Source of the DNA: Caldifarciminota bacterium
GTDB taxonomy: Bacteria; Hydrothermota; Hydrothermia; Hydrothermales; JAJRUZ01
Assembly (NCBI GenBank): GCA_024277525.1
Contig: JAJRUZ010000034.1
Span: 1-33,429 of the forward strand
Direction of reading: 5' to 3'
Length of the DNA stretch: 33,429 bases
In this document: piece by piece, positions 3,991-33,429 of the stretch
Layout of the letters: each line of letters begins with the position of its first letter
Numbering within the stretch: position 1 is the stretch's first letter
Position numbers and translations under genes: made by a program
Notes under the pieces: generated by a model
What the model was told of the DNA's origin: nothing
The model's input: the letters and a program-made list of their open reading frames with translations, nothing else
Database searches by the model: none

Positions 3991-4080
3991 ATAAACCGAA
4001 GTTTTCATATTTTTATTATAAAAATTTTTAATCATATTTTTCAATTTTAAAAAATTTTTGGTTTCAATTTCAAAAAATCC

Positions 4081-4117
4081 GCGTTCGGAAACCGCTCCTG
4101 CGAGTTCGCAGGCTACA
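4081..4117. repeat. REP-like palindromes (family A), two units
   Basis: The first unit is an imperfect hairpin, GCGTTCGGAAACCGC. The second (4097-4112) is perfect: CCTGCG, loop AGTT, CGCAGG, followed by the tail CTACA. The layout of a short GC stem, a tetraloop and a tail ending in CTAC(A) recurs at seven other places in the window. Confidence 0.75.
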
Positions 4118-4123
4118 GTTTTT

Positions 4124-4160
4124 CAATCCCCCTAACCTCCTTCTCCAAGGGGGAAATTTT
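4124..4160. repeat. Interspersed repeat family B, copy 1
   Basis: The segment starts caatccccct and ends ccaagggggaaat. It pairs CCCCCT with AGGGGG. It matches 32537-32571 inside moeA over about 35 bases with a handful of substitutions and no gaps. It is embedded in the palindrome cluster 4081-4236. Confidence 0.7.
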
Positions 4161-4165
4161 AATGT

Positions 4166-4189
4166 CGCGATTGGGAAATCGCTCCTGCA
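4166..4189. repeat. REP-like palindrome (family A)
   Basis: GCGATT, loop GGGA, AATCGC, followed by TCCTGCA. Same stem-tetraloop-tail layout as its neighbours. Confidence 0.75.
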
Positions 4190-4213
4190 TTTATTTTTTA
4201 ATCTGAAATTATC

Positions 4214-4236
4214 GCGGTTCGGAAACCGCCCCTACA
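4214..4236. repeat. REP-like palindrome (family A)
   Basis: GCGGTT, loop CGGA, AACCGC, followed by CCCTACA. A perfect six-base stem. Confidence 0.8.
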
Positions 4237-5593: not shown

Positions 5594-5636
5594 AATCGCG
5601 ATTAGCTCCTAAATGTGCGATAAATCGCACCGCTAC
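5594..5636. repeat. REP-like palindromes (family A), one perfect and one decayed
   Basis: A perfect unit at 5615-5636 (GTGCGA, loop TAAA, TCGCAC, tail CGCTAC) is preceded by a shortened one (AATCGCGATT, then AGCTCCTA). They lie between the convergent ends of the ATPase and nhaA, a usual place for REP elements. Confidence 0.75.
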
Positions 5637-14538: not shown

Positions 14539-14611
14539 GCCAGGGTAGCTCAACCGGAAGAGCATCGCATTCGTAATGCGAAGGTTGCGGGTTCGACTCC
14601 CGTCCCTGGCT
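14539..14611 (+). tRNA. tRNA-Thr (anticodon CGT)
   Basis: A 73-base cloverleaf. The acceptor stem GCCAGGG/CCCTGGC is perfect, the D arm is GCTC/GAGC, the anticodon stem TCGCA/TGCGA carries loop TTCGTAA (anticodon CGT at its centre), and the T arm has loop TTCGACT. The discriminator is T and the CCA end is not encoded. It reads ACG codons. A phosphohexomutase gene begins 12 bases downstream on the same strand. Confidence 0.95.
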
Positions 14612-21617: not shown

Positions 21618-21676
21618 AACGGTCAATGGTTATAAATCATACCGTTATCCCTCGCAATCCGAAAGTTGCGGCTACA
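21618..21676. repeat. Imperfect hairpin plus a decayed REP-like unit (family A)
   Basis: AACGGT (21618-21623) pairs with ACCGTT (21641-21646). Directly after it, 21653-21676 (CGCAA, loop, TTGCG, tail GCTACA) matches the unit at 33251-33274 in moeA at 20 of 24 positions by eye. The 209-base stretch between the asparagine-synthase-like and thioesterase genes holds nothing else recognised. Confidence 0.65.
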
Positions 21677-32190: not shown

Positions 32191-33429
32191 TTAAAAGTTC
32201 CGATCAGGAAGCAAATGAGCAATCACTTTGTTGCCTTTTTTGATTTTTTTCATATTCTTCGGAGCAATTATTAAACAATCTGCTTTTGCAAATGAAGAGA
32301 GCATGTGTGATTCTTGATAATCTAAGGGGATTACCCCTCTTTTTGTAATTTTTCCTCTCAAAAACCATAATCTATCCGTTTCTTTTTCTATGTCTTTTAA
32401 AAGGGTTATTTTCTTTTTAACCAAAAATATATTTTTAAACCCTGATAATGCCCTTATTGCAGGATATACATATTCATAAAAACAGACAAGAACAGAAGCA
32501 GGATTCCCGGGGAGTGCAAATATCAGTTTTTTATAACAATCCCCCTGCCCCCTTTCACCAAGGGGGAAAATGCCAAAATATAAAGGTTTCCCAGGTTTTT
32601 GTTTAACTTTATAAAAAATTGTCTTAACTTTTTCTTTTTCCATCAAATCCCTTACAAAATCATAATCACCTACCGAAATTCCTCCTGAAAATAAAATTAT
32701 GTCTGCAAATTCAAGTGCCCTATAAAATTCCTTTTTAATTTTTTCAAAATCATCCTTTATTCTTTTTATTTTAATTTCACTAACTCCTGCCGATTTTAAA
32801 GCAGAATATAAAGAAAAGGAATTTGCATCATAAATCTTTCCCTCTTTTAGTTTTTTACCGGGTTCTGTAAGTTCATTACCTGTGATTATTATATAAACTT
32901 TCGGTTTTCTTATAACCTTAACCTCCTTTATCCCCATTGTGCTTAAAAATCCTATTCCCGCAGGATTTAAATATGTTCCCTTTTCGAGAACCTTCTCTCC
33001 TTTTTTGATTTCTTCCCCCTTAAATCTTATGTTTTCTCCTTTTTTAATCTGTTTTTTTACATACAGAATATTATTCTTAACTTCTGTAAATTCTTTCATA
33101 ATGACAGCATCCGTATTTACAGGTAAAGGAGAACCTGTAAAAATCTTAACGGCTTCACCGGGCTTTAATTTTATTCTTTTATAATCTCCCGGTTTTATTT
33201 CTTTTTTTTGCAAATAAAAAGTCGCATAAATGCGACCGCTACATTTTTTTCGCAACCTAAAGGTTGCGGCTACATTTCTTATTGTTTTAAACCTCACAGC
33301 AAACCCATCCATTGCGGAATTCGTAAAAGGCGGAAGGTCTATAGGAGAATAAATGTCTTCGGCTAAAATATATGAAACAGCATCTTTAATATGAATTTTA
33401 ACAGAATTAAGAACAAACAAATTCTCCTT
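32191..33429 (-). CDS. moeA: Molybdopterin molybdenumtransferase MoeA, 5' partial, with in-frame repeats
   Basis: The frame is open to the window edge, giving 412 visible residues. A TTG at 33420 has an SD too close, and MoeA normally has 20-30 residues before this point, so the gene very probably begins beyond the window. MoeA inserts molybdate (or tungstate) into molybdopterin. Motifs seen: LAEDIYSPIDLPPFTNSAMDG, KPGEAVKIFTGSPLP, LFSGGISVGDYDF and ALPGNPAS, with a C-terminal domain IV. Two stretches do not belong to the family: about 18 residues encoded by two palindromic repeats (33221-33274), and about 12 (FPLGERGQGDCY) encoded by a family B repeat (32537-32571). Both keep the frame open. 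Confidence 0.9.
   Translation of the reverse strand, partial: KENLFVLNSVKIHIKDAVSYILAEDIYSPIDLPPFTNSAMDGFAVRFKTIRNVAATFRLRKKCSGRIYATFYLQKKEIKPGDYKRIKLKPGEAVKIFTGSPLPVNTDAVIMKEFTEVKNNILYVKKQIKKGENIRFKGEEIKKGEKVLEKGTYLNPAGIGFLSTMGIKEVKVIRKPKVYIIITGNELTEPGKKLKEGKIYDANSFSLYSALKSAGVSEIKIKRIKDDFEKIKKEFYRALEFADIILFSGGISVGDYDFVRDLMEKEKVKTIFYKVKQKPGKPLYFGIFPLGERGQGDCYKKLIFALPGNPASVLVCFYEYVYPAIRALSGFKNIFLVKKKITLLKDIEKETDRLWFLRGKITKRGVIPLDYQESHMLSSFAKADCLIIAPKNMKKIKKGNKVIAHLLPDRNF
32537..32571. repeat. Interspersed repeat family B, copy 2, inside moeA
   Basis: Similar to 4124-4160 over about 35 bases without gaps. On the minus strand CCCCCTT, loop GGTGA, AAGGGGG. It encodes FPLGERGQGDC between YFG and the conserved KLIFALPGNP of MoeA. 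Confidence 0.75.
33221..33274. repeat. Two REP-like palindromes (family A) inside moeA
   Basis: Unit 1: GTCGCA, loop TAAA, TGCGAC, tail CGCTACA (33221-33243). Unit 2: CGCAACC, loop TAAA, GGTTGCG, tail GCTACA (33251-33274). Both stems are perfect. Their copies outside genes are at 5615-5636 and 21653-21676. Confidence 0.85.

Follow-up and report, generated by a model that had tools for sequence, protein, structure and literature searches.

In-frame GTAG-tagged hairpins and an associated C/G-rich repeat within moeA of an uncultured bacterium from the order of Candidatus Hydrothermus

The moeA gene and its three repeats

The stretch of DNA analysed here (the window, 33,429 nt) is contig C24 of a 2.34-Mb genome in 102 contigs, 96.5% complete, of an uncultured bacterium that belongs to the order of Candidatus Hydrothermus. 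Its end is occupied by moeA, the gene for molybdopterin molybdenumtransferase (32191–33429, minus strand), which is cut by the contig end; 412 codons are present, and the first codons are found on a different contig. The Pfam models MoeA_N, MoCF_biosynth and MoeA_C each score above cut-off in this gene, solved MoeA proteins in the PDB match it with an E value of 5e-57, and identity to the closest relatives is 60–68%, with the best match from the same order in Candidatus Hydrothermus pacificus (G004). No moeA was matched in G001 and G002, which belong to the same family, and the matches in two genomes from one genus of the class (G016 and G006; L028 and L029) contain one in-frame TGA apiece. 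Elsewhere in the window, tandem repeats of ~99 nt occupy positions 926–1383, within a gene on the minus strand (ORF of 363 aa) that has a match to an RHS repeat.

Three repeats lie within moeA on the minus strand, at the positions originally predicted for them. Two are REP-like hairpins, placed in tandem in one orientation with a short A run between them, and together they span 33221–33274. R3 (33250–33273/74) has a GTAG head and a 7-bp stem, reads TGTAG-CC-GCAACC-TTTA-GGTTGC-GA on the coding strand and would be translated as VAATFRLR; R2 (33221–33242) reads TGTAG-CG-GTCGCA-TTTA-TGCGAC, corresponding to the peptide (C)SGRIYAT. The third, repeat B (32537–32571), is a C/G-rich element with the sequence CCCCCTTGGTGAAAGGGGGCAGGGGGATTG and the conceptual translation IFPLGERGQGDC. 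RNA folding against shuffled sequence found R3 and R2 to be more stable than expected (z −3.4 and −2.4), with their GTAG left unpaired in the predicted fold, and B not to be so (z −0.4); having neither GTAG nor a stable hairpin, B is not a REP. The reading frame stays open through all 412 codons, the three repeats included, as had been predicted, and from this open frame we infer that the repeats are translated.

The hairpins occupy a first site after MDGFAVRFKTIRN, and B a second site after KPGKPLYFG. At the second site the DNA of relatives reads TTT GGA AAA AAG GGT AAA AAA CT, and here 39 nt including B replace AAA AAG GGT (9 nt), for a net gain of 30 nt. In the proteins, the loop between two conserved anchors at site 1 comprises 51 aa against 32–43 in 35 homologues, a gain of 8 to 19 residues (8 relative to Hydrothermus, 16 relative to G003) from which the exact size of the insertion is uncertain because this region varies in length. 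At site 2 the loop has 28 aa; 31 of the 35 homologues have 18 there and none more than 23, the gain being usually 10 residues. The expected lengthening of both loops is borne out by these comparisons, and it coincides exactly with the repeats. The DNA of G003 and G004 at moeA is free of the repeats, and these two relatives and the 35 homologues have neither the extra residues nor the repeats, an outcome that does not refute the proposed insertions.

The MoeA signature and active-site residues are conserved, and all three domains of MoeA are recognised. Among the positions of E. coli MoeA mutated in solved structures, D59, T100, R137, E188, D228, K279, R350 and S371 are kept, and D142 is replaced by E. 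An AlphaFold2 model of the protein has a mean pLDDT of 90.4 and matches the Cnx1E/MoeA fold with a TM score of 0.88. The repeat-encoded segments form loops in this predicted model, and they are the one internal part in which it lacks confidence; among the segments listed, pLDDT falls below 50 at residues 51–64 and 293–298, both within repeat-encoded stretches, where gaps in the alignment are part of the cause of the low values. The inserts would be extra, probably disordered loop residues, and MoeA is presumably made and active.

Repeat families across the genome

The genome contains a recognisable set of related hairpins. At up to three mismatches, R1 (GTAGGAGCGGTTTCCGAACCGCGA) has 42 copies genome-wide and R2 has 24, of which 12 are exact, and a reversed-pattern control for both returned none. 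R3 is represented by one exact copy and one at three mismatches, with stem variants at 21652 in the window and beside C29:11123. Strict patterns find three copies of B genome-wide; outside moeA it occurs at 4124–4156 in the window, at C47:5320, and on C85, where relaxed copies form a 39-bp tandem array. The proposal that the repeats of moeA also occur in the non-coding DNA of the window finds confirmation in three intergenic features: a cluster of R1-type hairpins with the B copy just mentioned (4062–4235, unstranded), an R2-variant hairpin, GTAGCGGTGCGATTTATCGCAC (5615–5636, minus strand), and the R3 variant at 21652–21676 (minus strand). An apparent R3 match at 14571 is a chance one and forms part of a tRNA-Thr gene; this tRNA was the sole match in Rfam.

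GTAG or a variant of it such as GCAG heads the stem in nearly all copies of R1, R2 and R3, and by shape we class all three as GTAG-tagged REPs. In a set composed of R1 copies at the three-mismatch limit and two variants, four of the six stem pairs vary on both sides, an outcome seen in 0 of 500 shuffles. Some clusters alternate in orientation, as in the forward-reverse-forward arrangement within the LUD gene at C69:6284 and in intergenic clusters. R1 was not found in any other genome from its family, order or class, and in the wider phylum two genomes have single copies. A Y1/RAYT transposase (PF01797) was not found in this 96.5% complete genome with a search that gave matches in control genomes. 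Several R2 copies, on C48, C58, C59, C60, C81 and C85 and mostly at contig ends, share ~40 nt of identical flank, which suggests that they lie within a longer repeat, the probable cause of the breaks in the assembly.

Most copies lie outside genes, with 14 of the 66 R1 and R2 copies falling within genes or gene fragments. By a crude call on a 339-kb sample of the genome, ORFs make up ~92% of the DNA, and given this fraction most insertions into genes have presumably been lost.

The search of other ORFs that the original prediction called for yielded several further genes with in-frame repeats. A TauE/SafE permease (C47:5320–5380) carries B and R1 adjacent and internal, and its orthologue in Hydrothermus pacificus (L244, 1795–1950; 74% identical), which adjoins moeA in that genome, has two in-frame B-type repeats in the same loop; no further B copy occurs in 340 kb of G004. 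An LUD/4Fe-4S protein (C69:6284) contains three alternating internal hairpins in frame, and an S9 peptidase (C7:17937) has an in-frame repeat with 14 residues more than in G001 and G003. Among the PQQ-propeller paralogues, one on C7 combines an AATCCCG-type array with three copies of R1, and one on C22 has two R1 copies and a shortened one. The absence of the repeat from homologues is demonstrated for moeA and the S9 peptidase.

The case of a kdsB-like cytidylyltransferase (C21:9425), which also has an in-frame internal hairpin, is different. Its homologues in the same-family genomes G001–G003 are of equal length and have no repeat-like DNA, and the more distant relatives are ~7 residues shorter. 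The refuting condition set out for moeA, equal residues in close relatives with no repeat-like DNA, does apply to this gene. A simple insertion is therefore not supported here and we dropped this gene as a clean example; either a REP took the place of existing codons, or the insertion is old and has since degenerated in the sister genus or relatives. Short R1-bearing ORFs (such as one of 97 aa on C1 and one of 129 aa on C85) and the N-terminal cases on C40 and C92 were not counted, as the start codon is possibly downstream in each, the homologues of the C40 gene beginning past the repeat. The C-terminal cases C32:4657 and C25:36837 were set aside for possible changed ends.

Spread, tolerance and alternative explanations

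What could account for hairpins and a non-REP repeat within an apparently intact enzyme gene? We consider it very probable that the GTAG-tagged hairpins and B spread mainly between genes, and that a minority came to lie in frame within loops, where they are tolerated. REP-like hairpins of 22–24 nt and the associated C/G-rich B would have spread chiefly through intergenic DNA, by a REP-type process (transposase-mediated, on single-stranded DNA) or by recombination. A few would have landed within genes, and those that kept the frame and fell in loops would have been near-neutral and so tolerated. As a result, moeA and several other genes would encode, and presumably translate, the repeats as additional loop residues.

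Two possibilities had been raised initially, tolerance at surface loops and selection for open frames in the repeats, and the former is the better supported. R1 is read in two frames that give unrelated peptides, VGAVSxPR (e.g. VGAVSEPR) and xRSGFRTA (e.g. RSGFRTA), which argues against selection for one peptide, and the predominance of copies outside genes weighs in the same direction. Were the encoded peptides selected for a function, as a domesticated motif that favours open-frame repeats, one could expect the uniform orientation of the in-gene copies: all eight independent R1 and R2 events are sense. Simple neutral insertion would not predict this, because R1 is open in both sense and antisense frames (two sense, the third containing TAG, and three antisense). 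The occurrence of the B peptide in the same TauE/SafE loop here and in Hydrothermus also speaks for a selected peptide. However, copies between co-directional genes lean towards sense as well (17 against 7 antisense), so that the bias within genes may stem from the mode of insertion; the host genes are without an evident common role, and the inserts are of low confidence in the model. A functional peptide is consequently very improbable in our judgement, and spread at the DNA level combined with tolerance explains the in-gene repeats better.

A decaying or spare moeA, with the insertions as pseudogene debris, would be in line with a 5' fragment of the gene that runs into a REP on C19 and with the lack of a moeA match in G001 and G002, which suggests that the gene may be dispensable. 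Yet the repeat-bearing moeA is the only complete copy genome-wide, the other moeA being that 5' fragment, so the gene is not a pseudogene beside an intact copy. Its long open frame, the retained signature and active-site residues, the degree of identity to its closest relatives, and the same pattern in other intact genes likewise oppose decay, which we regard as unlikely. An artefact of assembly, with reads joined at the repeated hairpins, is barely credible. Several contigs do end near repeats, that of moeA in a repeated stretch of 110 bp, but the hairpins at 22–24 bp are far below this contig-end overlap, one continuous MoeA frame passes through both flanks, and two different sites in moeA and several other genes are affected alike.

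The 110-bp sequence (33320–33429, minus strand) recurs at both ends of C19 and at the end of C82. The 5' part of moeA is present twice (C19 1–240, C82 4210–4364, window 33283–33429). C19 begins with the moeA fragment, 147 bp at 99% identity, and then diverges; 15 nt past the divergence lies an R1 copy, at the offset of R3 in the complete moeA, and another gene follows. Either the contigs are ordered C82-C19-C24, which would place the fragment 5 kb from the full moeA, or the two ends of C19 join each other. The PQQ-propeller genes form a multi-copy family (L221 on C84, L225 on C83, L051 344–1807, and L220), and two 5' fragments of it share a common right flank, the one on C84 being cut exactly at the second in-gene REP and the one on C83 at the first. 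These exact cuts suggest recombination at in-gene hairpins, and we tentatively propose that in-gene REPs serve as recombination joints, with partial gene copies ending at or beside them. If so, the hairpins would add length to proteins and also give rise to partial duplications of genes.

Relation to known repeat systems

To our knowledge, translated in-gene hairpins have not been known from this lineage. The present case would extend translated REPs to an uncultured lineage whose recent elements form a recognisable set. By comparing orthologues with and without repeats, one can test by what route short hairpins get into genes and for what reason a part of them is retained; intact enzymes such as MoeA show the extent to which such loops can be borne. 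Selfish repeats may also give rise to gene fragments, as the truncated copies that end at in-gene hairpins suggest; these joins and the shared TauE/SafE site are, in our view, the most interesting leads.

GTAG-tagged REPs are hairpins of 20–40 bp whose stems vary in a complementary manner, and a genome has several types of them (PMC3733652). Di Nocera, De Gregorio and Rocco (2013) described them within ORFs, single, dimeric or grouped, where they encode extra residues and were proposed to occupy linkers or loops (PMC3733652). The elements described here share with them the GTAG tag, the dispersed short palindromes, the stem covariation and the in-ORF copies, and their GA spacer, which separates GTAG from the stem, recalls the GTAG-1/2 format; they differ in the Y1/RAYT gene that was not found, in a moderate copy number (66 for R1 and R2), and in the non-REP repeat B that shares two of the genes (PMC3733652). 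Two different families in one gene had been thought unusual. Intragenic REPs are already known outside Rickettsia, and two insertions in a single gene are on record for O. terrae uvrA as well as for R. conorii uvrB (PMC3733652); B is not REP-like.

REPINs and RAYT-mobilised REPs have the GTAG head, the short dispersed hairpin and some alternating clusters in common with our elements (PMC3116915, PMC2817692). The differences are that the transposase was not found here and that a fifth of the R1 and R2 copies lie in genes or gene fragments.

The parallel with the palindromic elements of Rickettsia (RPEs), drawn at the outset, is a sound one, with in-frame repeats at tolerated loops in moeA and several other genes. 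In Rickettsia and Wolbachia, elements of 100–150 bp reside in ORFs with the frame kept, at solvent-exposed places, and orthologues have inserts at the same locus (PMC3767692). Insertion into ORFs with the frame kept (moeA, S9 peptidase and others) and same-locus inserts in orthologues are alike in both systems; the 22–24 nt GTAG-tagged elements of this unrelated lineage are set apart from RPEs by description. The phenomenon is already known as intragenic REPs and is akin to RPEs, and it is the lineage that is new.
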